A stretch of 64,000 nt of DNA from Paracoccus sediminicola. GTDB lineage: Bacteria > Pseudomonadota > Alphaproteobacteria > Rhodobacterales > Rhodobacteraceae. Shown here in pieces: positions 40,092-58,138 of this stretch (within the stretch, counting starts at the first letter, position 1; every line of letters begins with the position of its first letter). The notes under the pieces were generated by a model. It was given only the letters and a program-made list of their open reading frames with translations, did not search any database and was not told the origin of the DNA. The position numbers and the translations under genes were made by a program. Where the stretch lies: the NCBI RefSeq assembly GCF_027912835.1, contig NZ_CP115768.1, forward strand, positions 682,001-746,000, in the 5' to 3' direction.

Positions 40092-41294
40092 CTAGGCGGC
40101 GCCGCCCATGTCGCGAAGCTCTTCCAGCGCGTTGATCCCCAGCAGCGCCATGTCCCGATCGACCTCTTCGGCCAGAAGCCGGATCGCGTGGCGCACGCCG
40201 GCCTCGCCATCCGTGGCGGCGGCATAGAGGAAGGGCCGTCCGACAAGAGTAAAATCGGCGCCGCGCATGAACGCCTTCAGCACATCGGTGCCGCGCCTGA
40301 TGCCGCTGTCGAGGATCACGGTCAGGTCAGGCACTGCCGCGCGTATCTCGGGCAGTGCCGTGATCGGCGCGACCGAGCCGTCAAGCTGGCGGCCGCCGTG
40401 ATTGGACAGGATGATCGCCTCGCAGCCGCAGTCGCGGGCCTGCCGCGCATCGTCGGGATGCAGCACGCCCTTGAGGATCAGCCGCCCCGTCCAGTTGCGC
40501 CGGATAAAGCGCAGATGATCCCAGCTGAGCCGGTCTCGGGCGATGGTCGAGCGGGTCAGATCGCGCGAGAACAGGGGCGGTCCCTGAACCGATTCCATGT
40601 TCTCGAAATGCGGCATGCCGCGCGCCATCATCTCGCGGCCGAGCGTGCCGAGCGTCCAGCGCGGATGGGTCGCGCCCTGCCAGATCAGTTGCGGCGTCAG
40701 GCGGAACGGTGCGTCGAACCCGTTGCGGGCGTTATGTTCGCGGTTGCTGGCCACGGGAACGTCGCCGGTGACGACCAGATGATAGAAACCCGCCGCCGCG
40801 ACCCGTTCCAGAAGCGCCCCGATCCGGTGCTCGTCGCCGGGGACATAAGCCTGGAACCAGCGGCTGCCGCCTTCCTGCGCGACCCGTTCGAGGGGGGTGA
40901 GCGAGGCGGCTGAGCAGATCGCGAAGCCGTCCGATTCGCGCGCTGCGCGGGCCAGAGCCACGTCGCCGTCATAGGCCACCACGGCGCTGAACCCCATCGG
41001 CGCGATGGCGAAGGGCAGGGCCTGATCCTCACCGAACAGCCGCGTCGCGATGCTGCGGCCCGAGACATCCCGCATGATCCGGGGTTGAAACCCGATCTCC
41101 TGGAAGGCGGCGCGGTTGTTGCGCAGGCTGGCATCGGTTTCCGATCCGCCGCTGACATAGCCGAACATCGCGCGCGGCAGATGCCGCCGCGCCCGTGTCT
41201 CGAAATCGTCGAGCGCCAGCACGCTACGCAAGCGCCGCGGCACATCGGATGTCTTGCGCCGTACGATGGCGACCGACTCGGCGGGCTTCTTCAC
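40092..41294 (-). CDS. lldD: FMN-dependent L-lactate dehydrogenase / alpha-hydroxy-acid oxidase
   Basis: Oxidises L-lactate (or a related 2-hydroxy acid) to the keto acid, passing electrons to quinone. The GTG at 41294 gives 400 residues, the normal size; the frame stays open for 60 codons upstream without a good start. Conserved FMN blocks are FGYVSGGSETDASLRNN, FAIAPMGFSAVV, and the catalytic His/Arg pair in IILSNHGGRQLDGSVAP. GMN-type DSGIRRGTDVLKA follows. It is divergent from the GTA cluster, with a 445-bp intergenic region between them. Confidence 0.88.
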   Translation of the reverse strand: MKKPAESVAIVRRKTSDVPRRLRSVLALDDFETRARRHLPRAMFGYVSGGSETDASLRNNRAAFQEIGFQPRIMRDVSGRSIATRLFGEDQALPFAIAPMGFSAVVAYDGDVALARAARESDGFAICSAASLTPLERVAQEGGSRWFQAYVPGDEHRIGALLERVAAAGFYHLVVTGDVPVASNREHNARNGFDAPFRLTPQLIWQGATHPRWTLGTLGREMMARGMPHFENMESVQGPPLFSRDLTRSTIARDRLSWDHLRFIRRNWTGRLILKGVLHPDDARQARDCGCEAIILSNHGGRQLDGSVAPITALPEIRAAVPDLTVILDSGIRRGTDVLKAFMRGADFTLVGRPFLYAAATDGEAGVRHAIRLLAEEVDRDMALLGINALEELRDMGGAA

Positions 41295-41413
41295 TTGGAT
41301 GCCCCGGATAAACCGATCCTGCGCGGCGAAACCATGCCCGGCATTAAACTCTCCTGCGATGCGATCATTCTCGTTCCGGGCATGGTTAACGCAAGCTCTG
41401 ATCTGAGGGAACC

Positions 41414-41545
41414 GTGTTGCGGAGGCGGGATCGGAGACGATGTCGCGCCGGCTGGGACTGGGGGGCGGTCGCAACGGCGATTCGCGCCGATATTGCGCGC
41501 AATTCCGGGGGGTGTTGCGCGGCTCCGGGCGTGGGGTGTTGCGCG
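41414..41545. repeat. Clustered TTGCG motifs upstream of the GTA operon (candidate activator sites)
   Basis: Five related elements: GTGTTGCG at 41414, CGCAAC at 41470 (opposite strand), the 12-bp palindrome ATTGCGCGCAAT at 41492-41503, and GTGTTGCGCG at 41512 and 41536. The last two lie in a 13-bp direct repeat (GGGGTGTTGCGCG) spaced 24 bp. They sit 60-230 bp upstream of the predicted promoter. They may bind the GTA activator GafA or another regulator; this is inference. Confidence 0.45.
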
Positions 41546-41607: not shown

Positions 41608-41636
41608 TTGACTTGGCGAACGCTCTGGGGTAGAAA
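41608..41636 (+). promoter_or_regulatory. Predicted GTA operon promoter (TTGACT-17-TAGAAA)
   Basis: TTGACT at 41608-41613 and TAGAAA at 41631-41636 are separated by 17 bp, close to the sigma-70 ideal. A TTAACG half-site for CtrA lies 25 bp upstream (41580). The expected start point, seven bases after the -10 box, is the A of an ATG at 41643. Confidence 0.6.
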
Positions 41637-41642
41637 TTTCAC

Positions 41643-41678
41643 ATGCTGGGAGAAATGGGCAAGCCGCCGGGTCGCTGA
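41643..41678 (+). CDS. Candidate 11-residue leader peptide (MLGEMGKPPGR) before GTA g1
   Basis: ATG at 41643 coincides with the predicted transcription start, so it would be translated as a leaderless message. It reads MLGEMGKPPGR then TGA at 41676-41678. The ORF crosses the first arm of the terminator hairpin and stops in its loop, the layout expected if ribosome movement controls termination. No Shine-Dalgarno sequence is present. The Pro-Pro-Gly stretch could slow ribosomes. Confidence 0.35.
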   Translation: MLGEMGKPPGR

Positions 41679-41694
41679 CCTTTGGCGGTTTTTT
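41661..41694 (+). terminator. Intrinsic terminator/attenuator in the GTA 5' leader
   Basis: AAGCCGCC (41661-41668) pairs with GGCGGTTT (41684-41691), with a 15-nt loop and six T residues (41689-41694). It lies between the predicted promoter and g1. No upstream plus-strand gene needs terminating here, so an attenuator role is likely. Confidence 0.6.
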
Positions 41695-41739
41695 CGTTTC
41701 TTGGCTCGTGCGGACAGATCACGAGGCGGGGCATGTTGG

Positions 41740-42090
41740 ATGACAGTGAATTTCGATCCGGGGACGGAACAGCCAGAGGGGCCGTTCCGGCCCCAATCGG
41801 CCATGGAGGACATCGAGATCGCGGGGCAGTTGTTTCGCGGTTGCGCGGAGGATCTGACCCGGTTGCAGCAGCGTCTGCGGGACGGGGAGACCGGCGAGGT
41901 GAAGGACGCGGTGAAACTCGCCCGCGAGCTTCGCTCGGCCACGCAGCTGATGCTCGAGGAAAGGAACAAGGTTGAAAAACTACGCAAGGAAGCTGCCGGA
42001 GCCGTCGGGGACGGTGTGTTCGACCTCGACGCGGCACGGGATGAAATCGGGCGCCGCCTGGCTTGCCTCCGCCGCGCCGGAGGAGGTTGA
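41740..42090 (+). CDS. GTA g1-like small terminase subunit
   Basis: A 116-residue protein at the head of the gene transfer agent operon, in the position of RcGTA g1 (small terminase, TerS). Predicted mostly helical (AMEDIEIAGQLFRGCAEDLTRLQQRL and ELRSATQLMLEERNKVEKLRKEAA). In GTAs TerS works with TerL to package random host DNA. The ATG at 41740 follows GAGGCGGGG. Its end overlaps the terL start by 50 bp. Confidence 0.78.
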   Translation: MTVNFDPGTEQPEGPFRPQSAMEDIEIAGQLFRGCAEDLTRLQQRLRDGETGEVKDAVKLARELRSATQLMLEERNKVEKLRKEAAGAVGDGVFDLDAARDEIGRRLACLRRAGGG

Positions 42091-43387
42091 TGCGTTTCTG
42101 GGCGGCCTCAGCGACAATGCGCTGGCCAGCCTGCCCTGGCTGTTCGAGTTCTGGGCCCTGCCGCATCAGCTGCCGCCCGAGGGCGACTGGAAAAGCTGGG
42201 TGATCATGGGCGGGCGCGGTGCGGGCAAGACCCGCGCCGGGGCCGAATGGGTGCGCCGCAAGGTCGAGGGCGCGGTGCCCGAGGCGCCCGGCGAGTGCGC
42301 CCGGGTCGCGCTGGTCGGCGAGACGTTCGATCAGGTCCGCGAGGTGATGGTGTTCGGCGACAGCGGCATCCTTGCCTGCTCGCCGCCCGACCGGCGGCCG
42401 GTCTGGGAGGCGTCGCGGCGGCGGCTGGTCTGGCCGAACGGGGCGGTGGCGACGGCGTTCTCGGCCCATGAACCCGAGGCGCTGCGGGGTCCGCAATTCG
42501 ACGCGGCCTGGGTCGATGAGCTGGCCAAGTGGAAGAAGGCCGAGGACAGCTGGGACATGCTGCAATTCGCGCTGCGGCTCGGCGCGCATCCGCAGCAGGT
42601 GGTGACGACGACGCCGAAGAATGTCGAGGTGCTGAAGCGGATCCTGCGCAGCGCCTCGACGGTGACGACCCATGCGCCGACCGATGCAAACCGGGCCTAT
42701 CTGGCCGAGAGCTTTCTGGCCGAGGTCGAGGCGCGCTATGGCGGCACGCGGATGGGTCGGCAGGAGCTGGAGGGCGTGCTGCTGGAGGATGTCGAGGGGG
42801 CGCTGTGGACGACGGCAATGGTCGAGGCGTGCCGGGTGGACCGGCTGCCGAAGCTGGACCGGGTGGTGGTGGCACTGGATCCGGCGGTGTCCTCGGGGGC
42901 GGCCTCGGATGAATGCGGGATCGTGGTCGCCGGGGTGGCGGCGCAGGGTGCGCCGGAGACCTGGCGGGCCTATGTGATCGAGGATGGCTCGGTCCGGGGC
43001 AGCCCGCTGGACTGGGCGCGGGCGGCGATCGCGGCGATGGACCGGCACAAGGCCGAGCGGCTGGTGGCCGAGGTCAATCAGGGCGGCGATCTGATCGAGA
43101 GCGTGCTGCGCCAGGTCGATCCGCTGGTGCCGTTCCGGGGTTTGCGGGCCGGGCGCGGCAAGGCGCTGCGGGCCGAGCCGGTGGCGGCTTTGTATGAGCA
43201 GGGCCGGGTGAAGCATCTGCGCGGGCCGTCGCTGGGGGCGCTGGAGGATCAGATGTGCCGGATGAGCCTGCGCGGCTATGAGGGGAAGGGCTCGCCCGAC
43301 CGGCTGGATGCGATGGTCTGGGCGGTGCACGCGCTGATGATCGAGCCGGCGGCGGGGTATCGGCGGCCGATGATGCGGAGCCTGTGA
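42041..43387 (+). CDS. terL: GTA large terminase (g2)
   Basis: DNA-packaging motor and headful nuclease of the GTA, 448 residues. The start at 42041 (MKSGAAWLASAAPEEV) overlaps g1. The ATPase domain has Walker A VIMGGRGAGKTRAGAEWVRR near residue 57 and Walker B FDAAWVDELAKWKK. The nuclease domain begins near VALDPAVSSGAASDECGIVVAG and includes VAEVNQGGDLIESVLRQVDP. It packages host chromosomal DNA into small heads in the known system. Confidence 0.94.
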   Translation: MKSGAAWLASAAPEEVDAFLGGLSDNALASLPWLFEFWALPHQLPPEGDWKSWVIMGGRGAGKTRAGAEWVRRKVEGAVPEAPGECARVALVGETFDQVREVMVFGDSGILACSPPDRRPVWEASRRRLVWPNGAVATAFSAHEPEALRGPQFDAAWVDELAKWKKAEDSWDMLQFALRLGAHPQQVVTTTPKNVEVLKRILRSASTVTTHAPTDANRAYLAESFLAEVEARYGGTRMGRQELEGVLLEDVEGALWTTAMVEACRVDRLPKLDRVVVALDPAVSSGAASDECGIVVAGVAAQGAPETWRAYVIEDGSVRGSPLDWARAAIAAMDRHKAERLVAEVNQGGDLIESVLRQVDPLVPFRGLRAGRGKALRAEPVAALYEQGRVKHLRGPSLGALEDQMCRMSLRGYEGKGSPDRLDAMVWAVHALMIEPAAGYRRPMMRSL

Positions 43388-43501
43388 GCGTGGCAGAGGG
43401 TCGGCGGAAGACCGCGGGGGGACGCTGCTGGCGGTGATTCAGGGCGCTTTATCGGGCATCCCCACTGAACGGGTGTTCGGCACGGACCGGAGAAGAAGCG
43501 T

Positions 43502-43541
43502 CCGCCCATCATGCTTTGCATGTCAATGACATGACGGGCGG
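43502..43541. repeat. Inverted repeat in the terL-portal gap
   Basis: CCGCCCATCATG (43502-43513) and CATGACGGGCGG (43530-43541) are inverted with one mismatch around a 16-nt loop that itself contains CATGTCA/TGACATG. It lies in a 334-bp gap (43388-43721) that holds no convincing gene. Confidence 0.55.
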
Positions 43542-43669
43542 TCGGTCGCTGGCACGGCGGGCTGTGCCCTTGATTCCGGGCTGGGTTCGTCGGGGCTGGG
43601 TTTGGAGTTTGGGTATTTGCGTGAAGAAGAAAGACGGCCGGTCGCTTTGATCGGGCGATGAGGAGTGAG

Positions 43670-43697
43670 GGGCCGTCCGGTTGGGGCGGCCCTTTTT
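43670..43697 (+). terminator. Terminator-like hairpin before GTA portal gene
   Basis: GGGCCG (43670-43675) pairs with CGGCCC (43687-43692), with an 11-nt loop and five T residues (43693-43697). It ends 24 bp before the portal ATG, inside the operon, so it would reduce transcription from terminase genes into head and tail genes. Confidence 0.65.
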
Positions 43698-43721
43698 CAT
43701 GGAGCGACACGGAGGCGAGGC

Positions 43722-44897
43722 ATGGCGTTTCGTTTGTTTTCCCGGCAGGCAGAGGCCGCGCCGGTGATCGAGAAAAAGGCGAGTGCGGCGGGGCGGGTGG
43801 CCTCGGTGGCGGCGGCGGGGCGCGTGGTCTGGTCGGCGCGCGATACCGGCACGCTGACCCGGGGCGGGTTCATCGGCAATCCGGTCGGGTTCCGTGCGGT
43901 GCGGCTGATCGCCGAGGCCGCCGCTGCCGTGCCGCTGATCTGCCAGGATGCCGAGCGGCGCTATGACACCCATCCGGTGCTGGAGCTGCTGCGGCGGCCC
44001 AATCCGGCGCAGGGAAGGGCCGAGCTGTTCGAGGCGCTGTTCGGGCAGATCCTGCTGAGCGGCAACGGCTATCTGGAGGCTGTCGGCACGGGCGAGGGGC
44101 TTCCGGCAGAGCTGCATGTACTGCGATCCGACCGGATGAGCGTGGTGCCCGGGGCGGATGGCTGGCCGGTGGCGTTCGACTATGCGGTGGGCGGTCGCAA
44201 GCATCGCTTCGACATGACCGGCAGCCCCGATCCGGTCTGCCATATCCGCAGTTTCCACCCCTGCGACGACCATTACGGGCTGTCTCCGTTACAGGCGGCG
44301 GCGGTGGCCGTGGATGTGCATAACAGCGCCTCGGCCTGGTCGAAGGCGCTGCTGGACAATGCGGCAAGGCCCTCGGGCGCGATCGTCTATAAGGGGCCGG
44401 ACGGGCAGGGGAACCTGTCGGCAGAACAATATGAGCGGCTGACCGTCGAGATGGAGACCCATCATCAGGGCGCGCGCAATGCCGGCCGGCCGATGCTGCT
44501 GGAGGGCGGGCTGGACTGGAAGCCGATGGGGTTCTCGCCCTCGGATATGGAGTTTCACCAGACCAAGCAGGCGGCGGCGCGCGAGATCGCGCAGGCCTTT
44601 GGGGTGCCGCCGATGCTGATCGGGATACCGGGGGATGCGACCTATGCCAATTACGCCGAGGCGCATCGGGCGTTTTACCGGCTGACGGTGCTGCCGCTGG
44701 TCAGCCGCGTGGCGGCCTCGGTCGCGTGGTTCCTGTCCGAGCATCTGGGGGCCGAGGTCGATCTACGGCCCGATCCGGATCAGATCCCGGCGCTGGCCGA
44801 AGAGCGCGACCAGCAATGGCGGCGGATCGGCGAGGTGTCTTTCCTGAGCGATCCGGAAAAGCGGGCCTTGTTGGGTCTGCCGCCGGTGGAGGGCTGA
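43722..44897 (+). CDS. GTA portal protein (g3), HK97 family
   Basis: Forms the ring at the head vertex through which DNA enters and leaves. 391 residues. The ATG at 43722 follows GGAGGCGAGG. HK97-portal blocks are NPVGFRAVRLIAEAAAAVPL, HPVLELLRRPNPAQGRAELFE, ILLSGNGYLEAV and AFGVPPMLIGIPGDATYANY. It starts the head and tail part of the operon after a 334-bp gap with a terminator-like hairpin. Confidence 0.93.
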   Translation: MAFRLFSRQAEAAPVIEKKASAAGRVASVAAAGRVVWSARDTGTLTRGGFIGNPVGFRAVRLIAEAAAAVPLICQDAERRYDTHPVLELLRRPNPAQGRAELFEALFGQILLSGNGYLEAVGTGEGLPAELHVLRSDRMSVVPGADGWPVAFDYAVGGRKHRFDMTGSPDPVCHIRSFHPCDDHYGLSPLQAAAVAVDVHNSASAWSKALLDNAARPSGAIVYKGPDGQGNLSAEQYERLTVEMETHHQGARNAGRPMLLEGGLDWKPMGFSPSDMEFHQTKQAAAREIAQAFGVPPMLIGIPGDATYANYAEAHRAFYRLTVLPLVSRVAASVAWFLSEHLGAEVDLRPDPDQIPALAEERDQQWRRIGEVSFLSDPEKRALLGLPPVEG

Positions 44898-44898
44898 G

Positions 44899-45129
44899 AT
44901 GGAGGGATCGCGCTTTGTCGAAAGTCTCGATCCGCATCATCTGCGCTTCGAGGCGCAGGAGCGGGTCATGGCGCTGCAATTCGGGGCCGTGGAAAAGCGG
45001 CTGGAGCGGATCGAGGCGCTGATCTCGGGGCTGGAGAAGCGGCTGTGGATGACGGTTTACGGCGTGGTGGCCGTGATCCTGACCCAGGCCGTGCAGTCTC
45101 TGATCGAATTTGCATCGAATGGAGGGTGA
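44899..45129 (+). CDS. GTA g3.5-like small membrane protein
   Basis: A 76-residue protein between portal and protease, the position of RcGTA g3.5. The N-terminal half is amphipathic (LQFGAVEKRLERIEALISGL) and the C-terminal half is one membrane helix (WMTVYGVVAVILTQAVQSLI). The function is unknown. It starts 1 bp after the portal stop. Confidence 0.75.
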   Translation: MEGSRFVESLDPHHLRFEAQERVMALQFGAVEKRLERIEALISGLEKRLWMTVYGVVAVILTQAVQSLIEFASNGG

Positions 45130-45130
45130 T

Positions 45131-45655
45131 TTGGAGAGCTGTCTGGAACTGAAATTCGCCGGTGGGCGGCCCGCGCTGCGCGATGGCGCGGTGATCGAGG
45201 GCTATGCCAGCCGGTTCGGCCTGCCTGATCAGGGCGGGGATATCGTCGCGCCCGGCGCCTTTGCTGCCTCGCTGGCGAAGCTGGCGGCACGGGGCGACAA
45301 GGTGCGGATGCTGTGGCAGCACGATCCGGCCCGGCCCATCGGCGTCTGGGAAGAGGTCCGCGAGGATGCGACGGGGCTGTTCGTGCGCGGCCGCCTGCTG
45401 GAGGGCGTGACGCTGGCGCAGGAGGCCGCGACGCTGATCGGGGCGGGTGCCATCGACGGGCTGTCGATTGGCTACCGCACCATCCGTGCCGAGAAGGACG
45501 GGCGCGGCCGCCGGGTGCTGCGCGAGGTCGAGCTGTGGGAGGTCTCGCTGGTGACCTTCCCGATGCTGCCCGAAGCCAAGCTGGGCGCGAAGGGCGAGCG
45601 GACCGAGGATATCGCCGCGGCGCTGATTGCCGCGACGGAGGCGCTGCGCGGCTGA
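45131..45655 (+). CDS. GTA prohead protease (g4), HK97 family (peptidase U35)
   Basis: Cleaves the capsid N-terminal scaffold during head maturation. About 174 residues from a TTG at 45131, which has a GGAGGG ribosome site five bases before it. An in-frame ATG at 45119 lacks one, so the true start is uncertain by four codons. Family marks are VIEGYASRFGLPDQGGDIVAPGAF, the catalytic His in VRMLWQHDPARPIG, and Ser in IDGLSIGYRTIRA. Just upstream of the capsid gene. Confidence 0.9.
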   Translation: MESCLELKFAGGRPALRDGAVIEGYASRFGLPDQGGDIVAPGAFAASLAKLAARGDKVRMLWQHDPARPIGVWEEVREDATGLFVRGRLLEGVTLAQEAATLIGAGAIDGLSIGYRTIRAEKDGRGRRVLREVELWEVSLVTFPMLPEAKLGAKGERTEDIAAALIAATEALRG

Positions 45656-45746
45656 GGCAGGCGCGGCGCGACAGGGGTTCGGGCGGTGCCGCGCGCATTG
45701 CCCGCACAAACGGGCCACGGGCCCGATCATCATCAAGGAGAGGCTG

Positions 45747-46910
45747 ATGACAGAGGTCACGACCGGGGCGCAAGGCGCGCCCGGCGAGATGAAGGATGCG
45801 CTTTTGGGTTTCGTCGAGGAACTCAAGGGCTTTCGCCAAAATATCGAGAAGAAACTGGACGCACAGGATCACCGCATGAGCATGTTAGACCGCAAGACCG
45901 CCTTCCGCGCGCGCAGCCCGCTTTCGACTGAGGTCGCTCCGGAGGTTCCGCATCAGAAGGCGTTCAACGCCTATCTGCGCCGTGGCGACGATGCCGGGCT
46001 GCGCGGGCTGGCGGTCGAGGAAAAAGCGATGAACACGACCAGCGATGGCGGCTTCCTCGCTGCGCCTCAGATGGCAGAGACCGTGCAGGCTGCGCTGTCC
46101 GGATCGGTCTCGCTGCGCGGCCTTTGCAATGTGGTGAGCATCGAGGCGGCGAGCTATGACGTGCTGGTCGATCGTGACGATCTGGCGACGGGCTGGGCGA
46201 GCGAGTCCGACACGATCGAAAGCTCGGCGTCGGGCGTCGAGCGGGTTTCGATCTCGCTGCATGAACTTTCGGCCATGCCGAAGGCAAGCCAGCGTCTTCT
46301 GGATGATGCCGCCTTTGATATCGAGGCCTGGCTTGCCGGGCGCATCGCCGAGAAATTCGCGCGCGCCGAGACCCATGCCTTCCTTCATGGCGACGGTCTG
46401 GACAAGCCTACGGGGCTGCTGAGCGGCGCCTTCGATGAGACGGGCGTTGGCGCGATCGACACGATCGGCGCGATGAAGACCGGCGTGTCGGGCGGGTTCG
46501 CGGAAGGCAAGGGTGCCGAGACGCTGATCGACCTGGTCTATGCGCTGCCCGCCGCGCATCGCGCCAATTCGAGCTTCGTCATGAGCTCGAAAACCGCGGC
46601 CGCGCTGCGCAAGCTGAGGGATGGGGACGGCCGCTTCATCTGGGCCGACAGCCTGGCGGCGGGCGAGCCGGCGCGGCTGCTGGGCTATCCGGTGATGACC
46701 TGCGAGGAGATGCCCGAGATCGCCGCCGATGCGCCTGCGCTGCTGTTCGGCGACTTCCGGGCCGCTTATACCATCGCCGAGCGTCCCGAGCTGCGGGTGC
46801 TGCGCGATCCGTTCTCGGCCAAGCCGCATGTGCTGTTCTACGCCACCAAGCGTGTCGGCGGCGGGCTGGTCGATGGCCGCGCCCTGAAGGTCCTGAAGTT
46901 CGGCGCCTGA
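45747..46910 (+). CDS. GTA major capsid protein (g5), HK97 fold
   Basis: Forms the GTA head. 387 residues. Residues 1-95 are a helical scaffold region (GFVEELKGFRQNIEKKLDAQ) expected to be removed by the protease. The rest is the HK97 core with KAMNTTSDGGFLAAPQMAET and the C-terminal PHVLFYATKRVGGGLVDGRA. The start at 45747 follows AAGGAGAGGCTG. The 146 bp before the next gene contain a GC hairpin (CCGGCC/GGCCGG) without a T run. Confidence 0.94.
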   Translation: MTEVTTGAQGAPGEMKDALLGFVEELKGFRQNIEKKLDAQDHRMSMLDRKTAFRARSPLSTEVAPEVPHQKAFNAYLRRGDDAGLRGLAVEEKAMNTTSDGGFLAAPQMAETVQAALSGSVSLRGLCNVVSIEAASYDVLVDRDDLATGWASESDTIESSASGVERVSISLHELSAMPKASQRLLDDAAFDIEAWLAGRIAEKFARAETHAFLHGDGLDKPTGLLSGAFDETGVGAIDTIGAMKTGVSGGFAEGKGAETLIDLVYALPAAHRANSSFVMSSKTAAALRKLRDGDGRFIWADSLAAGEPARLLGYPVMTCEEMPEIAADAPALLFGDFRAAYTIAERPELRVLRDPFSAKPHVLFYATKRVGGGLVDGRALKVLKFGA

Positions 46911-47056
46911 TCCCGATCGGGTTGCCGAGGGCCGCGCCGGGCGCCGGTCGAGCCGGCACAGCAACTGTCCGCGCACGCCCTCGGGCGGCGTGCCGGCGCG
47001 GCTTCTTTCCCTTGGAACAACCGGCCTTTCGGGCCGGCTCGGACGGGAGGTTCGGG

Positions 47057-47662
47057 ATGATACTTGTCGAAGAGACAACACCGGCGGATGCGGCGCTGCC
47101 GGTGGCCGGATTGCGGGCGCATCTGCGGCTCGGATCCGGTTTCGAGCTGCCGGAGACATCAGAGGAAGACCGGGCACTGGCCGGGTTTCTGCGCGCGGCG
47201 ATGCGTGCCGTCGAGGGCCGCACCGGCAAGGTGCTGCTGCGCCGCGATTACCGGATGGTGCTGGAAGACTGGCGAGACGCGTCCGGGCAGGCGCTTCCGC
47301 TGGCGCCGGTCAGCGCGGTGACGGGGCTTTCTATCGAGACGGCGGACGGTCAGGCGCGGGATCTGCCGGTGCAGGGCTGGCGGCTGGTCGAGGACATGAT
47401 GCGCCCGCTGATCCGCCCGCGTGGCGCGGCTCTGCCCGCGGTGCCGCGTGGCGGGCGCGTGGTGATCCGCTTCAGCGCCGGCTTCGCGGATCTATGGGAC
47501 GGCGTTCCGGCGGATCTGGCGCAGGCGGTGATGATGCTTGCGGCGCGCTATTACGAGGATCGCAGCGATGAGAGCGCGCGGCAGGCTTTGCCGCTGGGAG
47601 TCGCGGCTTTGATCGAGCGCTGGCGGGCGGTGCGTGTTCTGGCCGGACGGGGCGCGCGATGA
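47057..47662 (+). CDS. GTA head-tail adaptor (g6)
   Basis: Connects the portal to the stopper. 201 residues, with phage gp6-like connector pattern (AALPVAGLRAHLRLG, EDRALAGFLRAAMRAVEGRTG, DLAQAVMMLAARYYEDRSDES). The ATG at 47057 follows GGGAGG; upstream in-frame codons are intergenic-like. Its stop overlaps the next gene by 4 bp. Confidence 0.87.
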   Translation: MILVEETTPADAALPVAGLRAHLRLGSGFELPETSEEDRALAGFLRAAMRAVEGRTGKVLLRRDYRMVLEDWRDASGQALPLAPVSAVTGLSIETADGQARDLPVQGWRLVEDMMRPLIRPRGAALPAVPRGGRVVIRFSAGFADLWDGVPADLAQAVMMLAARYYEDRSDESARQALPLGVAALIERWRAVRVLAGRGAR

Positions 47663-47988
47663 GCGCCGCGCGGCTGAACGTGCCGCTGGTGCTGGAGGAA
47701 AAGCAGCGTCAGCCGGACGGAATGGGCGGGTATCGCGTCGCCTGGCGGGCTCTGGGCGTGGTTCATGCGGCGATGAAAAGCGGTGCCGGGCGATTGCGCG
47801 CAGCCGAGGCTGGCGCGGAAAGCGTGCTGCGCTGGGCGATCACGCTGCGCGCGCATCCCGCAGGCGATCCGCGCCGCCCGCTGCCCGGCCAGCGTCTGCG
47901 CATGGGCAGGCGGCTGTTTCACATCGAGGCAGTGGCCGAGGCGGACGAAGCCGGCCGCCATCTGCGAATCACGGCACAGGAGGAGTGA
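47659..47988 (+). CDS. GTA head-closure/stopper protein (g7)
   Basis: A 109-residue phage head-tail joining protein (SPP1 gp16-like family). The pattern LVLEEKQRQPDGMGGYRVAW followed by LRWAITLRAHPAGDPRRP and RLFHIEAVAEADEAGRHLRI is typical. It closes the head after DNA packaging. Overlaps g6 by 4 bp and ends 2 bp before g8. Confidence 0.85.
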   Translation: MSAARLNVPLVLEEKQRQPDGMGGYRVAWRALGVVHAAMKSGAGRLRAAEAGAESVLRWAITLRAHPAGDPRRPLPGQRLRMGRRLFHIEAVAEADEAGRHLRITAQEE

Positions 47989-47990
47989 GC

Positions 47991-48410
47991 ATGAGCTATC
48001 GCGCTTCGGCGGCGTTGCAGGGCGCCGTCTATGACTGCCTGCGCCGCGATCCGGGCGTTGCCGCGCATGTCGGCGATGCGGTCTTCGATGCGCTGCCCAT
48101 CGCGGCGCCGGGCGGGGTCTACGTCTCGCTCGGGCCCGAGGAGGTGACCGATCTTTCGGATAGCGGCGGGGCGGTGTCGCGACATGATTTCGTGGTCTCG
48201 GTGCTGGCCGGGAGCGATGAGGGCGCAGGGTTCCGCGCCGTGAAAGAGGCCGCCGTGGCGGTCAGCGCGGCGCTGGAAGGTGCCGCGCTTGCAACCGCGA
48301 CCGGCCATCTCGCCGGTCTGTGGTTTCTGCGTGCCCGCGCCAAGCGGGTGGAAAACGGCGCCGAACGGCGGGTCGATCTGACCTTCCGGTCGCTGATGGA
48401 TCTGGCCTGA
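47991..48410 (+). CDS. GTA tail terminator (g8), DUF3168 family
   Basis: Caps the tail tube at the head end. 139 residues. DUF3168-type pattern: LQGAVYDCLRRDPGVAAHV, YVSLGPEEVTDLSD and RVENGAERRVDLTFRSL. The ATG at 47991 follows ACAGGAGGAG; a longer frame upstream is only g7 in another frame. Confidence 0.86.
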   Translation: MSYRASAALQGAVYDCLRRDPGVAAHVGDAVFDALPIAAPGGVYVSLGPEEVTDLSDSGGAVSRHDFVVSVLAGSDEGAGFRAVKEAAVAVSAALEGAALATATGHLAGLWFLRARAKRVENGAERRVDLTFRSLMDLA

Positions 48411-48420
48411 GGAGAAGGAC

Positions 48421-48834
48421 ATGGCGGTTCAAAACGGACGCGATCTGCTGATCAAGATGGATATGACCGGGGCGGGCGAATTCGAGACCGTCGCCGGTCT
48501 GCGCGCCACCCGCATCGGCTTCAACGCCGAGACGGTGGATGTCACCAGCCTGGAAAGCGAGGGGCGCTGGCGCGAATTGCTGGGCGGGGCCGGGGTGCGC
48601 TCGGCCTCGGTCTCGGGCTCGGGCGTGTTCCGCGATGCGGCGAGCGACGGGCGCGCGCGGCAGGTGTTCTTCGACGCAGAGGTGACGCGCTGTCAGGTCA
48701 TCATCCCCGATTTCGGTATCGTGGAAGGCCCGTTCCAGATCACCGCGCTGGAATATGCCGGAAGCCATAACGGCGAGGCGAGCTATGAGATCGCGCTGGC
48801 CAGTGCCGGGGCGCTGAGCTTCGTGGCGCTGTGA
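48421..48834 (+). CDS. GTA tail tube / major tail protein (g9)
   Basis: Forms the tube of the tail. 137 residues with the TP901-1/GTA major tail pattern: MAVQNGRDLLIKMDMTGAGEF, RIGFNAETVDVTSLESEGRW and the C-terminal GEASYEIALASAGALSFVAL. The upstream ribosome site is GAGGAGAAGG. Its stop overlaps the next start by one base. Confidence 0.9.
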   Translation: MAVQNGRDLLIKMDMTGAGEFETVAGLRATRIGFNAETVDVTSLESEGRWRELLGGAGVRSASVSGSGVFRDAASDGRARQVFFDAEVTRCQVIIPDFGIVEGPFQITALEYAGSHNGEASYEIALASAGALSFVAL

Positions 48835-49148
48835 TGGCGAATCCCTGGCGCGGAGAGGTTGAGATCACGCTGGACGGCGTGGCTCATCGGGCGCGGCTCA
48901 CGCTGGGCGCGCTGGCCGAGCTGGAGGCCGAGCTGGACACTGGCGCGATGGTCGATCTGGCGGCGCGGTTCGAGGCGGGCCGGTTCTCGGCTGCCGATGT
49001 GATCGCGGTGGTCGTGGCCGGTCTGCGCGGCGGTGGCTGGACCGGGGACCGCGCGGCGTTGCTGGCCGCCGATGTGGCGGGCGGGCCGATCGGTGCGGCG
49101 CAGGCGGCCGCGCAGCTTTTGGCGCGGGCCTTTGCGGTGCCCGGATGA
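48834..49148 (+). CDS. GTA g10-like tail assembly chaperone
   Basis: A 104-residue protein of the GTA-gp10 tail assembly chaperone family. Patterns are RGEVEITLDGVAHRARLTLG and LAELEAELDTGAMVDLAARF. Such chaperones coat the tape measure during tail building and are absent from the final particle in phages. A GTG one codon earlier is a possible start. Overlaps g10.1 by 4 bp. Confidence 0.82.
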   Translation: MANPWRGEVEITLDGVAHRARLTLGALAELEAELDTGAMVDLAARFEAGRFSAADVIAVVVAGLRGGGWTGDRAALLAADVAGGPIGAAQAAAQLLARAFAVPG

Positions 49149-49480
49149 GCGGCATGGACTGGCCCGGGCTGATGCGGGCCGGGCTGGCCGGTCTGCGGCT
49201 GACGCCGGAGCAGTTCTGGGCGCTGACCCCGGCCGAGCTGGCGCTGATGCTGGGTGTCGATCCCGGCACGGCTCCGATGAGCCGCACCCGGCTGGAGGCG
49301 CTGGCGCGGCTCTGGCCGGATGGCAATCCGATCAAGGAGAACGACGATGACGGACAGGAACGGGCTGGAGCCGGGCGGGGCGACGCTGGGCCAGCAGATG
49401 GAGAAATCGGCGGATATGGCCTCGGGCCTCACGGCAGAGCTTGGCCGGATGCAGAAGACGATGTGGCTGACCGGGCGTGA
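49145..49480 (+). CDS. GTA g10.1-like tail assembly chaperone (read-through extended)
   Basis: The first ~65 residues match the small GTA chaperone family (MDWPGLMRAGLAGLRLTPEQ, then FWALTPAELALMLGVDPG and RTRLEALARLWPDG). In relatives the protein ends about there. Here the frame continues 46 more codons, overlapping the tape measure gene by 134 bp, in residues that look like out-of-frame tape measure coding. A lost stop codon is likely. The extension is probably translated but non-functional. Confidence 0.75.
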   Translation: MSGMDWPGLMRAGLAGLRLTPEQFWALTPAELALMLGVDPGTAPMSRTRLEALARLWPDGNPIKENDDDGQERAGAGRGDAGPADGEIGGYGLGPHGRAWPDAEDDVADRA

Positions 49481-50003
49481 GGTGGACAGCTTTGCCAGCG
49501 GCATCGGCTCGGGGCTGCGGCGCAGTTTCGATGGGCTGGTGCTGGACGGCATGAAGCTGAGCGATGCGCTGAAGGGCATCGCGCGCAGCATGGCCGACAC
49601 GGCCTATTCCATTGCCACGCGCCCGGTGCGCGATGCGGTGGCAGGGGCGCTGGCGAGCGGTGTGAACAACGTCGTTTCCGAAGTGGTGCCCTTCGCCGAT
49701 GGCGCCGCGTTTGCGCAGGGCCGGGTGACGGCCTTTGCCAAGGGGGGCGTCGTTTCGGCGCCGACCCGGTTCCCGATGCGCGGCGGCACCGGGCTGATGG
49801 GCGAGGCCGGGCCCGAGGCGATCATGCCTCTAAGCCGCGGTGCGGATGGGCGGCTTGGGGTTGCGGCCTCAGGCGGACAGGGCCGGCCGGTCAATGTCAG
49901 CATCACCGTCAACACGCCGGATGTTGCGGGTTTCGCCCGCAGCCAGGGCCAGATCGCCGCCCAGATGGGCCGGCTGCTGGCGCGCGGCCAACGCAATCTG
50001 TGA
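49347..50003 (+). CDS. GTA tape measure protein (g11), short
   Basis: Sets tail length. Only 218 residues, as in RcGTA, consistent with a short tail. The ATG at 49347 follows AAGGAG. The N-terminal half is helical (EVDSFASGIGSGLRRSFDGL). The middle has the glycine-rich stretch FAKGGVVSAPTRFPMRGG and GEAGPEAIMPLSRG, common in tape measure C termini. The first 134 bases overlap the extended g10.1 frame. Confidence 0.9.
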   Translation: MTDRNGLEPGGATLGQQMEKSADMASGLTAELGRMQKTMWLTGREVDSFASGIGSGLRRSFDGLVLDGMKLSDALKGIARSMADTAYSIATRPVRDAVAGALASGVNNVVSEVVPFADGAAFAQGRVTAFAKGGVVSAPTRFPMRGGTGLMGEAGPEAIMPLSRGADGRLGVAASGGQGRPVNVSITVNTPDVAGFARSQGQIAAQMGRLLARGQRNL

Positions 50004-50011
50004 GGCAAGCC

Positions 50012-50641
50012 ATGTTCCATGAGATCCGATTTCCGGCCAATCTTTCCTTTGGCTCGGTTGGCGGGCCCGAGCGGCGCACCGATATCGTTGCGCTCAGCAA
50101 CGGCCATGAAGAGCGCAACAGCCCCTGGGCGCATTCGCGGCGGCATTACGATGCCGGGCTGGGGCTGCGTTCGCTGGACGATATCGAGGCGCTGATCGCG
50201 TTTTTCGAGGCGCGCGGCGGGCAGATGCACGGGTTCCGCTGGAAGGACTGGGCGGATTACAAGAGCTGCGCGCCGAGCGCCGTGCCGGGTTTCCGCGACC
50301 AGTCGCTGGGGCACGGCGATGGCAGCGAGACGAGGTTTCAGCTGGTCAAGCGCTATGCCTCGGGCCCGGCGGCCTATCTGCGTCCGGTGCTGAAGCCGGT
50401 CGAAGGCTCGGTGCGCCTGGGGATCGGGGGCGAGAGGCAGCGGGAAGGGGTCGACTACACGGTCGATACGGCGACGGGACAGGTGCGCTTTGCGCTGCCG
50501 CCCCCGCCCGGTGCCGAGGTCACGGCAGGATTCGAGTTCGACGTGCCGGTGCGGTTCGATACGGACCGGATCGCGGTGTCGGTTGCCTCGTTTCAGGCCG
50601 GAGACATGCCTCAGGTTCCGGTGATCGAGGTGCGGCTATGA
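50012..50641 (+). CDS. GTA distal tail protein (g12), DUF2460 family
   Basis: A 209-residue baseplate protein joining the tube to the hub. DUF2460 marks: MFHEIRFPANLSFGSVGGPE, RRTDIVALSNGHEERNSPWA, FFEARGGQMHGFRWKDWADY and the C-terminal SVASFQAGDMPQVPVIEVRL. The ATG at 50012 is used rather than a GTG four codons earlier that overlaps g11. Overlaps g13 by 4 bp. Confidence 0.92.
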   Translation: MFHEIRFPANLSFGSVGGPERRTDIVALSNGHEERNSPWAHSRRHYDAGLGLRSLDDIEALIAFFEARGGQMHGFRWKDWADYKSCAPSAVPGFRDQSLGHGDGSETRFQLVKRYASGPAAYLRPVLKPVEGSVRLGIGGERQREGVDYTVDTATGQVRFALPPPPGAEVTAGFEFDVPVRFDTDRIAVSVASFQAGDMPQVPVIEVRL

Positions 50642-51528
50642 GCGCCGACAGCCGGACGACGACCATCGCGCGGGCCTGGGCGATCTCTCGCGCGGATGGG
50701 CTGGTGCTGGGGTTCACCGATCACGACCGGGCGTTGCACTTTGCCGGGATAGGCTTTCGCCCCGAGGCCGGGCTGACCGCGCAGGCCGTGGTCCAGGGTG
50801 CCGGTCTGTCGGTGGATAACAGCGAGGCAATCGGCGCGTTGAGCGATGCGGCCATATCCGAGGCGGATCTGATGGCCGGGCGCTGGGACGGGGCCGAGCT
50901 TCGGCAATGGGAGGTGGACTGGACCGATCCGGCGCAGCACAGGCTGGTGTTTCGCGGCCATCTGGGCGAGGTGAGCCGCGCGGGCGGCGCGTTCCGGGCC
51001 GAGCTGCGCGGGCTGTCCGAGGCGTTGAATCAGCCGGTGGGGCGGGTGTTTCATCCGCGGTGCAGTGCGGCATTGGGGGATGCGTGCTGCAAGGTCGATC
51101 TGACCCGCCCCGGGCTGAGCGCCGAGGCGCGGGTCGCAGAGGTGGCTGCTGCACGGCTGGTGGTCGAGGGGCTTGGCCTGCATCTCGACCGCTGGTTCGA
51201 ACGCGGCGCAGCGGTGATGCTGGATGGCGCCGCGAAAGGGCTGCGGGGGCAGGTCAAGAATGACCGCGCCCTGCCGGGCGGGCGGCGCGAGATCGAGCTG
51301 TGGGCCGCACCGGGCATCCAGCCCGAGCCGGGCGACCGGGTGAGGCTGATTGCGGGCTGCGACAAATCCGCCGGGACCTGCCGGGCGAAATTCGGCAATC
51401 TGCTGAATTTCCGCGGCTTTCCGCATCTGCCGCGCGAGGATTGGCTGATGGCGCCCGACGCTCCGCAACCGCGCCGCAAGCGCGGTTTCGACGATCTCGA
51501 CACGGCGCCGATCCATGCCGGGTCGTGA
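50638..51528 (+). CDS. GTA hub protein (g13), DUF2163 family
   Basis: A 296-residue baseplate hub protein. The N-terminal DUF2163 part contains RADGLVLGFTDHDRALHFAG. The C-terminal part has cysteines at about 142, 150, 151, 241 and 248 (HPRCSAALGDACC and GCDKSAGTCRAKFG), the layout that holds an iron-sulfur cluster in phage lambda gpL-type tail tip proteins. A similar cluster here is inferred. Its end overlaps g14 by 14 bp. Confidence 0.9.
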   Translation: MSADSRTTTIARAWAISRADGLVLGFTDHDRALHFAGIGFRPEAGLTAQAVVQGAGLSVDNSEAIGALSDAAISEADLMAGRWDGAELRQWEVDWTDPAQHRLVFRGHLGEVSRAGGAFRAELRGLSEALNQPVGRVFHPRCSAALGDACCKVDLTRPGLSAEARVAEVAAARLVVEGLGLHLDRWFERGAAVMLDGAAKGLRGQVKNDRALPGGRREIELWAAPGIQPEPGDRVRLIAGCDKSAGTCRAKFGNLLNFRGFPHLPREDWLMAPDAPQPRRKRGFDDLDTAPIHAGS

Positions 51529-51952
51529 GGCCGAGATCCTGCGCATCGCGCGCGCGTGGCTTGGCACGCCCTATCGCCACGGCGCGGCGATGCGCGGGGC
51601 GGGGACGGATTGTCTTGGGCTGATCCGCGGGGTCTGGCGAGAGCTATACGGGATCGAGGCCGAGATCCCGCCCGCCTACACGCCGGATTGGGGCGAATAC
51701 GATCCCGGCGAGCCGCTGCACGAGGCGGCGGCGCGGCATTTTCTCGCCGAGCCGGAGCCGCGTGACCGGATCGGGCAAGTGATTCTGTTCCGTATGCGGC
51801 GCGATGCGGCGGCGAAACATCTGGGGCTGGTATCCGCCATCGGGGCGGCCCCGGCCTTCATCCATGCCTATGAGCGTCACGGCGTTGTCGAAAGCCCGCT
51901 TTCGGCGCCGTGGCGGCAGCGGATCGCGGCGCGATTCCGCTTTCCCGACTGA
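51515..51952 (+). CDS. GTA cell-wall peptidase (g14), NlpC/P60 family
   Basis: A 145-residue NlpC/P60-type cysteine peptidase at the tail tip, expected to open the recipient's peptidoglycan. The catalytic Cys is in GAGTDCLGLIRGVWREL, and the His is probably in KHLGLVSAIG or FIHAYERHG. Overlaps the end of g13 and is followed after 12 bp by the megatron gene. Confidence 0.91.
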   Translation: MPGREAEILRIARAWLGTPYRHGAAMRGAGTDCLGLIRGVWRELYGIEAEIPPAYTPDWGEYDPGEPLHEAAARHFLAEPEPRDRIGQVILFRMRRDAAAKHLGLVSAIGAAPAFIHAYERHGVVESPLSAPWRQRIAARFRFPD

Positions 51953-51964
51953 GAGGAGAAACCT

Positions 51965-54900
51965 ATGGCGACCATCCTGCTATCCGCCGCCGGCGCGGCG
52001 ATCGGCTCGGGCTTCGGCGGCAGTGTTCTGGGGCTTGGCGGCGCGGTGATCGGCCGGGCGGCCGGCGCAACGCTGGGCCGCGTGATCGATCAGCGCCTGC
52101 TGGGCGCGGGCGCGCAGGCCGTCGAGACCGGGCGCATCGACCGGCTGCGGCTTCAGACCACCGGCGAAGGCGTCGCCGTGCCGCGCATCTGGGGGCAGAT
52201 GCGGATGCCGGGCCATGTCATCTGGGCCGCGCCGCTGAGCGAGGTTTCGTCACGCGAGGGCGGCGGCAAGGGCAACGGTCCCGAGATGCGCCGGATCGGC
52301 TATCGGCTGAGCCTTGCGCTGGCGCTGTGCGAAGGGCCGATCCTCGGCGTCGGGCGCGTCTGGGCCGATGGGCGCGAGATCGCCCCCGGCGATCTGAACC
52401 TACGGGTCTATACCGGCGGCGACGACCAGCTTCCCGATCCGGTCATCGCCGCGCATGAGGGCGCGGACGCCCCGGCCTATCGTGGCACCGCCTATGTGGT
52501 GATCGAGGAGATGGAGCTGGAACCCTGGGGGAACCGGCTGCCGCAGCTGAGTTTCGAGGTGACCTGCCCGGCGCGCTCTGGCGGCGGGCTGTCCGACCGG
52601 GTGCAGGCGGTGGCGTTGATACCGGGGACGGGCGAGTATGCGCTGGCGACCACTCCGGTGCGCTATGATCTGGGCCTCGGCGAGGCGCGGGCGGCCAACA
52701 GCGCGACGCCCCTGGCAGCGACGGATTTCACCGCGTCGATGGATATTCTCGGACGTGAACTGCCGAATGTCGGGTCGGTCTCGGTGGTGGTATCGTGGTT
52801 CGGGGATGATCTGCGCGTCGGTTCCTGTGCGCTGCGTCCCAAGGTCGAGAGCACCGCGCATGACGGGGCCGAGATGGCATGGCGCGCGGGCGGGATCGGC
52901 CGGGATCGGGCCGAGACGGTGGCGCGCCGCGACGGGCGACCGATCTATGGCGGCACGCCTGCCGATGCATCGGTGATCGAGGCATTGCGCGCGATTTCGG
53001 TCAGCGGGCGCAAGGCGGTGTTCTATCCCTTCATCCTGATGGAGCAGATGGAGGGGAATGGCCGCCCCGATCCGTGGACGGGGGCCGGGGATCAGCCGGT
53101 CATGCCGTGGCGGGGCCGGATCACCGCCGAGATCGCGCCGGGGCGCGCGGGCTCGCCCGATGGCAGCGCCGAGAACAGCGCGGCGGTGCGGCGGTTCTTC
53201 GGCGCGGCAAAGCCGGGGGATTTCCGCATCGAGGGGGACGCGATCCATTATGACGGGCCGGAGGAATGGTCATATCGCCGCTTCATCCTTCATTACGCTC
53301 ATCTCTGCGCGATGGCTGGCGGCGTGGATGCGTTCCTGATCGGCTCGGAGATGCGCGGGCTGACGCAGCTGCGCGGGCCGGGAGATCACTTCGTTGCCGT
53401 CGAGGAGCTGCGGCGGCTGGCGGCGGATGTGCGGGCGATCCTCGGGGCCGGGGTCAAGCTGAGCTACGCCGCCGACTGGTCGGAATATTTCGGCTATCAC
53501 CCCGGCGGCGGTGAGGCCTATTACCACCTGGACCCGCTCTGGGCTGACGAAAACATCGATTTCATCGGCATCGACAATTACATGCCGCTGTCGGACTGGC
53601 GCGAGGGCGAGGATCACGCCGACGCGCATTGGGGCCGGATCGACGCGCCCGGCTATCTTGAATCGCAGGTGGCAGGTGGCGAGGGCTATGATTGGTATTA
53701 CGCCGATCCCGCCCATCGCGACGCGCAGATCCGCACGCCGATCACCGATGGCGCGCATGATGAGCCCTGGGTCTGGCGCTACAAGGATCTGGCAAACTGG
53801 TGGAGCCGTCCGCATCACGAGCGGATCGGCGGCGCGCGGATGGAGGTCCCGACCGCCTGGGTGCCGCGCTCGAAGCCGATCTGGTTCACCGAGATGGGCT
53901 GCGCAGCGCTGGACAAGGGCGCCAACCAGCCGAACAAGTTTCTTGACGCGCATAGCTCGGAATCGCGGCTGCCGCATTATTCGACCGGGCGGCGCGACGA
54001 TGTGGTGCAGGCGGCCTATATCGGCGCGATGACGCGGTATTGGGGCGATCCGGCGAATAATCCGAAGGGCGCCTATGGCGGGCCGATGGTGGACATGTCG
54101 CGGGCGCATCTGTGGTGCTGGGATGCGCGGCCCTATCCGGCCTTTCCGGGGCGCACCGATCTGTGGTCCGACGGGCCGGCATGGGATCGCGGGCACTGGC
54201 TGAACGGGCGGGCAGGCGCGGTGCCTCTGCGCTCGGTCGTGGCCGATCTGTGCCATGCGGGCGGGCTGGACGATATCGACGTGAGCGGGCTGTCCGGGCT
54301 GGTGCGCGGCTATGTGGCGCAGTCGGTCGAAACGCCCCGCGCGAGCCTTCAGCCGCTGATGCTGGCCTACGGGTTCGATGCGGTGGAACGCGACGGGGTG
54401 CTGCGCTTCGTGATGCGCGATGGGCGCGTCACCGTGGCGCTGCAGGAAGATGGGCTGGCCGCGATGGCCGGGGGGGTGCATGACACGACGCGCGCCGCAG
54501 AGGCCGAGCTGGCGGGCCGGGTGCGGTTGACCCATCTGGCGGTGGGCGAGGGCTATGCGGCCTCGGTCGTCGAGGCGGGGCTGCCCGAAGAGGCCGCGCC
54601 AAGCGTTTCGGACAGCGAGCTGCCTCTGCTGCTGACCGTTTCCGAGGCGCGCGGCATGGCCGAACGCTGGCTGGCGGAATCGCGGCTGGCGCGGGACCGT
54701 ATCCGCTTTGCGCTGCCGCCCTCACGCGGGGATCTCGGGCCGGGCGATGTGGTGGCGCTGACCCGCAAGGGCGATGCCGCGCCGCGACGCTGGCGCATCG
54801 ACCGTGTCGAGCGGGCCGGGGCGATCACTGTCGATGCGGTGCTGACAGAGCCGGGGGTCTATCGCCCGGCCGATCATCACGAAGGCGGGCTGGAGGTGGC

Positions 54901-55837: not shown

Positions 55838-56550
55838 TGACCGAACAAACCACCTCGCGCCTCGCTCTGCCGCTGTTGCAGCAAGGGCAGGCACAGAAAC
55901 ATGTGACCGTGAACGAGTCGCTGGCGCGGCTGGACGGGATGGTGAATCTGGTGCTGCAGAGCCTGTCGCGCCCGCAGCCGCCCGCAGCCGTGGCCGAGGC
56001 CGCCTGTTTTGGCGTGCCCGAGGCTGCCGACGGGGATTGGGCGGGCCAGTCGGGTCGGATCGCGATCGCGGTGAATGGCGGCTGGGTCTTTGTCACGCCA
56101 CAGCCGGGAATGCGCGCCTTCATTGCCGATCAGGGCGCTCTTGCGATCCATGACGGCAGGGGCTGGGTCGTCGGGGCCATGACACTGGGCGGGTTCGGCT
56201 CGGCCCTTGTTGCGCGCTGCGCCGAAACCGAATGCGAGATCACCGCCGGGGCGGAGGTCACGACCGATCTGATCCTGCCGCATGCAGCGATGGTGATCGG
56301 GGTGACGGCGCGGGTGACCGAGGCGATCAGCGGCACGCTGACAAGCTGGAAGATGGGCAGCGACGGTTCGCTGGATCGCTTCGGCTCGGGGCTGGGCACA
56401 GCCGAGGGAAGCTGGGCGCGCGGGATGCTGTCGCAGCCGGTGACCTATTGGCAGCCCCGCCCGGTTCTGCTGACCGCCGTCGGTGGCGCGTTTGCCGGCG
56501 GCAGGTTGCGGATCGCCGCGCATTGGCTGGAGCTGACGCTGCCGCGATGA
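55837..56550 (+). CDS. DUF2793 family tail-associated protein at the end of the GTA operon
   Basis: A 237-residue DUF2793 protein. Family marks are RLALPLLQQGQAQKHVTVNE, LVLQSLSRPQPPAAVAEA, GWVFVTPQPGMRAFIADQGA and the C-terminal LLTAVGGAFAGGRLRIAAHW. These are found with phage or GTA tail genes and may be fibre-like. It is coupled to g15 by overlap. Its position resembles the last gene of RcGTA; a role in surface attachment is inferred. Confidence 0.8.
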   Translation: MTEQTTSRLALPLLQQGQAQKHVTVNESLARLDGMVNLVLQSLSRPQPPAAVAEAACFGVPEAADGDWAGQSGRIAIAVNGGWVFVTPQPGMRAFIADQGALAIHDGRGWVVGAMTLGGFGSALVARCAETECEITAGAEVTTDLILPHAAMVIGVTARVTEAISGTLTSWKMGSDGSLDRFGSGLGTAEGSWARGMLSQPVTYWQPRPVLLTAVGGAFAGGRLRIAAHWLELTLPR

Positions 56551-56614
56551 CAGCGCCGGACGGGTTTCGCCCGGCCTCGCTTTAGGCTAGTTTCTCCGTC
56601 AAAAGGAGACCGCC

Positions 56615-58137: not shown

Positions 58138-58138
58138 C

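Follow-up and report, generated by a model that had tools for sequence, protein, structure and literature searches.

A conserved promoter and leader terminator ahead of the GTA genes of Rhodobacteraceae suggest control by passage of a transcription stop

The GTA leader of Paracoccus sediminicola

The window, a stretch of 64,000 nucleotides from Paracoccus sediminicola, contains genes for a large terminase, a portal protein, a capsid protein and a GTA_TIM/Rcc01698-like protein, among others, downstream of a short leader, and therefore the cluster is, by its predicted gene content, of the RcGTA type. The original prediction described a TTGACT-17-TAGAAA promoter, an 11-codon open reading frame whose ATG lies at the predicted transcription start, and an intrinsic terminator with a run of six T. 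All of these elements can be read directly in the sequence at 41608–41694, ahead of the GTA gene g1 (41740). The prediction also held that no upstream gene needs a terminator here, which agrees with the position of the neighbouring FMN-dependent dehydrogenase gene on the other strand. The features of the locus are as follows, with the basis of each assignment in brackets.

40092–41474, minus strand: FMN-dependent dehydrogenase, the gene upstream of the leader (opposite strand)
41608–41636, plus strand: promoter, with −35 TTGACT at 41608–41613, a 17-bp spacer and −10 TAGAAA at 41631–41636 (direct reading and conservation)
41616–41622, plus strand: GCGAACG in the spacer, a candidate GafA-contact motif offered as a lead only (counts of GCGNNCG)
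41642–41663, plus strand: near-invariant start of the leader RNA, C-ATG-CTGGGAGAAATGGGCAAG (per-base counts in 60 Paracoccus leaders)
41643–41678, plus strand: 11-codon open reading frame MLGEMGKPPGR with stop TGA, judged non-functional as a coding unit (start, stop and codon tests)
41650–41702, plus strand: extended lower stem, pairing 41650–41659 with 41693–41702, past the T run (fold of 101 nt)
41661–41694, plus strand: predicted intrinsic terminator, stem 41661–41673/41677–41691 with a 2-nt bulge and T6 at 41689–41694 (folds, pair counts and shuffles)
41705–41725, plus strand: second hairpin, CTCGTG/CACGAG, with a conserved loop, adjoining the g1 ribosome site (alignment and folds)
41740–42090, plus strand: g1, small terminase by position, 116 aa (no Pfam match; 70 relatives in viral contigs)
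41972–43387, plus strand: g2, large terminase, open reading frame as listed, whose true start may be internal (Terminase_6N/6C)

The A of the ATG (41643) is the seventh base after the −10 box. The terminator is built from the arms AAGCCGCC (41661–41668) and GGCGGTTT (41684–41691) with an apical part GGGTC/GACCT, and the TGA of the open reading frame (41676–41678) begins at the last base of its 3-nt loop. The distance from the T run to g1 is 45 bp.

Taken from this single sequence alone, the promoter and terminator are not far above chance. A terminator scan of 3 kb recovers the leader terminator, but reports three such sites against 2.1 expected, and the scan does not list the leader promoter. 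The exact promoter pattern with up to two mismatches is expected 0.43 times per 64 kb; measured against TTGACA/TATAAT, the leader promoter has three mismatches, and three such sites are found where 4.9 are expected. The promoter scan of 41700–58500 finds none, and is uninformative since it misses the leader promoter as well. Inside the cluster, five plus-strand terminator sites against 6.5 expected on both strands give no evidence of further terminators.

Conservation of the leader and its link to GTA clusters

The leader is no accident because it is conserved: a 201-bp query matches it in 60 of 61 Paracoccus genomes, our own included, and a model with structure finds it in 281 of 394 genomes of the family, mostly once per genome (255 of 394 with a sequence-only model). 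The only miss in the genus (G017) is a genome of 71% completeness. Across the 60 Paracoccus leaders, strong conservation spans the stretch from the −35 box to the g1 ribosome site and drops on both sides, also within g1; 59 of the 60 are in the alignment, the remaining one (L007) ending at a contig end. For the family we assembled 108 leaders from 28 loci and 80 further listed places, with L131 (the window's own) and L132 (same genus) excluded; they come from the better-scoring part of the 255 matches, some listed ones having been skipped. A large terminase lies downstream on the same strand in 106 of these 108 leaders, and the two misses are a stretch cut by a contig end (L219) and a locus with g1 cut short (L241).

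The same association appears in wider searches. A degenerate exact pattern yields at least 120 matches in a species-level genome collection, and among these 102 have a terminase within 1.5 kb; the rest consist of ten with less than 700 b of downstream sequence, five chance-like matches and three leaders with no terminase match in reach. In viral contigs, a terminase follows 52 of 53 matches to this pattern, the one other match lying in a short stretch. The 80 named matches among the at least 120 include Paracoccus, Jannaschia, Tateyamaria, Roseovarius and Cereibacter. In phage records we find 205 relatives of the terminase, all below 60% identity. A pattern for the R. capsulatus leader, taken from a g1 primer in PMC6854486, has no match in viral contigs or in 427 loci, and a fuzzy match is likewise nil.

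Beyond the family, nothing convincing appears in the 385 and 347 class genomes sampled with the two models. The sequence-only model gives 12 matches at E ≤ 0.01 in 385 genomes (the own genome, two of the same family and nine others, none of the nine below 1e-3), and the structure model nine in 347 (the own genome, one of the same family and seven others). The best structure match outside the family, in a 1-Mb genome, spans 75 nt with an E-value of 3.8e-5 and was taken as chance. The E-values of model R2 are rough. A known RNA family was rejected as the identity of the leader: in Rfam 15 the window region has three chance-level matches, none above the gathering threshold, and 6 of the 108 family loci have no match.

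Four loci (L241, L284, L287 and L319) carry the leader before a GTA cluster with no large terminase found within reach, and in L319 the terminator stem is broken too. These loci have the apparent form of eroding GTA clusters, as judged from their sequences.

A near-constant promoter

A correctly spaced TTGAC is present in 58 of 60 Paracoccus leaders and 107 of 108 family leaders. Where TTGAC is present, a −10 box starting with TA follows after a 17-bp spacer in all 58 Paracoccus leaders and in 101 of the 107 family leaders. Because the −35 box is near consensus in 107 of 108 family leaders, and a near-consensus −35 frees the Caulobacter promoter from its need for GafYZ, control by initiation alone seems unlikely and a stop behind the promoter is sensible. 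The spacer contains GCGNNCG in 70 of 108 family leaders and 37 of 60 Paracoccus leaders, a motif picked after viewing the alignment. It resembles GCGCCCG, the left half of the Caulobacter GafZ element, and occupies the same position.

Two further observations concern the region of the −35 box. One Paracoccus leader (L019, genome G039) has lost the −35 through a 5-base gap, with the remainder of the leader intact. In several family leaders (L141, L158, L174, L178 and L192), the −35 is directly preceded by an A/T-rich block resembling TTGTTAATAATAAACTT, possibly an UP element or an activator site.

The short open reading frame

The original prediction proposed that translation of a leaderless peptide could decide over termination. 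In all 60 Paracoccus leaders an ATG coincides with the predicted start or adjoins it, as this mechanism would have it, but the start codon is absent from 52 of the 108 family leaders, where the triplet reads ATG in 56, AAG in 50, AGG in 1 and ATA in 1 with unchanged flanking bases. The at least 120 genome pattern matches include 78 with ATG and 36 with AAG, and the 53 matches in viral contigs divide into 40 ATG and 13 AAG. The stop is not conserved either: in Paracoccus, 29 of 60 leaders have a stop in frame ahead of the T run, and in the other 31 the frame continues past it.

The pattern of codon changes gives a similar picture. The synonymous share of changes in codons 2–8 is near neutral in Paracoccus (0.34, with 0.30–0.38 expected) and in slight excess in the family (0.44, with 0.27–0.38 expected), the latter being the one weak point in favour of coding. 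The four-fold degenerate positions 41648, 41651 and 41660 are changed in 0, 0 and 1 of 60 Paracoccus leaders, and position 41655, where a change replaces Met by Val, reads A in 29, G in 30 and T in 1. The family shares the near-invariant block at the leader start, position +2 being A or T. A coding role of the 11-codon frame was rejected on this start, stop and codon evidence, and translational control of termination is a very improbable explanation. The pattern of substitutions indicates that the constraint is on DNA or RNA and not on the peptide.

A leader of this kind might instead be chiefly a small-RNA gene, whose product acts in trans while read-through into g1 is incidental. Its layout of promoter, about 50 nt and terminator is that of a minimal small-RNA gene, its opening stretch of about 20 bases hardly varies yet is non-coding, and some leaders (L241 and L287) persist without a terminase in reach. 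We consider this explanation unlikely: the leader is tied to a GTA terminase in 106 of 108 cases, conservation does not end at the terminator but continues to the g1 ribosome site, and Rfam has no match above threshold for the window region or for six family loci. Furthermore, with up to three mismatches allowed over the full 21 nt, the first 21 nt have only their own leader as a complementary site in their own genome.

The terminator and its RNA structure

All 108 family leaders and 59 of 60 Paracoccus leaders contain a terminator-like hairpin followed by a T-rich tail, whereas single mononucleotide shuffles of the same sequences do so in 7 of 108 and 3 of 60 cases. The pairing itself is maintained. 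Across 101 rows aligned by sequence alone, one of them a spurious second match in L144, 97.8% of the cells of the main stem are paired, and five of its six pairs show changes on both sides. The upper stem parts are looser (84.4% and 81.6% paired), and the lower stem beyond the T run has a core of eight pairs with 95.1% of cells paired. The helices of the second hairpin are 70.6–90.4% paired with many gaps, and their pairing is less well supported.

Counted over 100 of the 108 family leaders, the whole structure, itself derived from the same family, exceeds every one of 500 shuffles in each of five measures, as well as every slid control. Pairs changed on both sides number 16 against 9.3 in shuffles, and further pair types 54 against 40.5. 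Kinship can inflate pairing counts; these two measures, which are rarely so affected, are likewise never reached by the shuffles. The compensatory changes indicate that the terminator is under selection. The original prediction proposed an alignment of the leader across related genomes as a check, and in that alignment the hairpin is kept with compensatory changes while the open reading frame is not. Its broader idea, control through termination once transcription has begun, accordingly survives without the peptide: a conserved terminator, kept with compensatory changes, separates the promoter from the first GTA gene and makes control after initiation likely.

A long stem at the 5′ end could also serve to stabilise the GTA mRNA or help in its processing, with no working terminator in it, and the structure of the stem is indeed kept, even for bases beyond the T run. 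The T run itself counts against this explanation. At least four T follow the stem in 59 of 60 Paracoccus and 102 of 108 family leaders, and a plain stem would need no T there. Two positions of the run face G in the extended stem, where they form G-U pairs in 95 and 72 of 100 leaders and the stronger G-C pairs in 1 and 19. Retention of G-U where C would pair better points to a U tract that works as a terminator tract, and a mere stabiliser is quite improbable.

The extended lower stem reaches past the T run, and can form only in read-through RNA. A further possibility is that a factor other than GafA, either an RNA-binding protein or a small molecule, reads the leader RNA and controls the terminator. 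Single-stranded stretches and the loop of the second hairpin contain invariant bases, which would suit such a factor. It is fairly improbable: only 18 nt (41643–41660) precede the stem, so that a competing antiterminator hairpin would have little space, the terminator is the main element of the 54-nt fold, and Rfam has no riboswitch or leader that matches the window region or six family loci above threshold. No alternative antiterminator hairpin is seen in the minimum-energy folds of one sequence, which include a long-range pair of 41643–41647 with 41730–41734. The 3′ arm of the second hairpin (region 41705–41726, in family leaders too) abuts or overlaps the purine-rich g1 ribosome site, and the second hairpin may also tune translation of g1.

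GTA loci without the leader

Of the 360 family genomes with a DUF6456 protein, 86 give no leader match. We inspected 18 of the 86, hand-picked and mostly well assembled, and all 18 have some large-terminase match, a very weak one in G078; in G073, G104, G135 and G182 the large terminase is split or interrupted by stops. Related GTAs, and thus GTA clusters with GafA, can therefore do without this exact leader unit. Within 300 nt scanned upstream, a terminator-like site is present in 10 of the 18 leader-negative loci, compared with 14 of 180 shuffles and 108 of 108 leader-positive loci. By their position, several of these ten sites are part of the upstream gene's own unit. By eye, a different terminator lies close before g1 in L439, L440 and L451, that of L451 being partly outside the scanned part. 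In L439 and L440 the stem layout is the same, with a lower stem past the T run, and is made of unrelated letters; no clear promoter is seen by eye upstream in L439. At one locus (L452, genome G073), only the part with the second hairpin and the ribosome site is recognisable (E = 2e-10), the terminator part being gone and the terminase in pieces.

GafA and the proposed switch

The own genome encodes a 390-aa protein with a DUF6456 domain beside lipA. The position of gafA beside lipA is a reported synteny (PMC6363796/PMC9638019, available passages). Among 14 control genomes, DUF6456 occurs in Caulobacter only. In a table compiled by hand from two family-wide searches, the leader is present in 274 of 360 DUF6456-positive and 7 of 34 DUF6456-negative family genomes (odds ratio 12.3, p = 1.7e-10), an association that co-loss of the whole GTA system would equally produce. 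A few genomes (G277, G291 and others) contain two or three matches to DUF6456, perhaps duplicates of GafA or genes that are split.

According to the available passages of PMC6363796 and PMC9638019, the C-terminal part of GafA binds the R. capsulatus promoter region including the −35, the −10 and the start site. GafA binding is placed 76–125 bp before g1, across the −10 and the start site, and RNA-seq puts the transcription start 76–125 bp before g1. If leader lengths match, on which the correspondence with the published GafA probe rests, the GafA-bound stretch would be 41615–41664 here.

The best explanation, to which we assign a probability of about 60%, is a switch like pR′/tR′ with GafA as the antiterminator. 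The unit would be an RcGTA-type promoter and leader built in the manner of lambdoid late-gene control, pR′ and then tR′. RNA polymerase would initiate at or next to 41643 and need little help in doing so. Without a helper it would halt at the T run, at about +52, with a short leader RNA as its product. GafA, bound to the promoter in GTA-producing cells, would load onto the polymerase, which could then bypass the terminator and transcribe g1 and the cluster. The GTA mRNA must cross the terminator because its promoter lies upstream of it and the 45 bp from the T run to g1 leave no room for another promoter behind it. The presence of mostly one leader unit per genome, before the GTA terminase, also counts for the switch. 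Against it count the DUF6456-positive genomes that give no leader match and two published descriptions: GafA is described as recruiting polymerase via omega, and so would act at initiation, and the proven terminator of Caulobacter sits behind the first gene and not in the leader.

By the predicted elements, many genera of one family keep a promoter and, directly behind it, a transcription stop before their genes for the GTA, a gene-transfer particle that resembles a virus and has been domesticated. This arrangement suggests that passage of RNA polymerase through the stop, and not a tiny peptide, switches the particles on. More tentatively, and with somewhat less than even confidence, we propose that hundreds of Rhodobacteraceae genera decide on GTA production only once transcription has begun, by a ready promoter, a stop at the leader terminator and a polymerase made resistant by active GafA. 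Such a switch would explain how a near-consensus promoter is silent in most cells. It predicts a short RNA that is possibly visible in existing RNA data, and if it is true, leader RNA exists even in GTA-off cells.

Comparison with known systems

None of the papers listed by the full-text searches describes this leader terminator. The available passages of PMC6363796, PMC9638019 and PMC6854486 mention neither terminator nor termination, PMC5107571 does not mention phage or GTA terms, and in its available part PMC2864571 names Rhodobacterales only for the SAM/SAH riboswitch. Promoter-proximal termination with antitermination is known; its conserved GTA form is, provisionally, undescribed in the literature searched. 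Antitermination reportedly controls the Bartonella GTA, judging by the title of a 2025 eLife article by Korotaev that PMC13236601 cites. The Bartonella GTA belongs to a different GTA lineage.

The R. capsulatus GTA promoter with GafA, as far as the available passages describe it, has the same cluster type and the same distance to g1 (Fogg 2019, PMC6363796; Sherlock and Fogg 2022, PMC9638019). There GafA is described as activating transcription through omega, whereas we propose antitermination. In Caulobacter crescentus, GafZ is a GTA antiterminator that bypasses terminators in reporters (Tran and Le 2024, PMC11150451, in the passages available to us, as for the statements on this system below). 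The system is similar to ours in having a GTA cluster, a terminator to pass and a DUF6456-type activator. The element from which GafZ works lies between −35 and −10, and the same text mentions the Q binding element; here GCGNNCG is a candidate in the same place, and no right half or palindrome as in the GafZ element is seen in the spacer. The systems differ in their terminators, which in Caulobacter form a set of three 150-bp repeats downstream of the first gene and here would be a small intrinsic one within the first 52 nt. They also differ in their promoters: that of Caulobacter is weak and needs GafY and IHF, and becomes active without GafYZ when given a near-consensus −35, while the leader promoter here is already near consensus. 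The C-terminus of GafA is homologous to GafZ, and the GafZ authors only speculated on antitermination activity of GafA and left the question open (PMC11150451). A conserved terminator between a GafA-bound promoter and the first GTA gene offers a base-resolved target for this question in many genera. Going by the passage on GafZ in PMC11150451, GafA and lambda Q are unrelated in sequence.

The layout has a phage precedent, and if the proposed switch is true, an ancestral phage late-gene switch survives as the on/off switch of a GTA. In lambda, the pR′ promoter has the tR′ terminator directly behind it and the late genes beyond, and Q serves as a dedicated antiterminator. The GTA leader has the same order, with a terminator right behind the promoter, the late genes beyond it, and an antiterminator that is here predicted.
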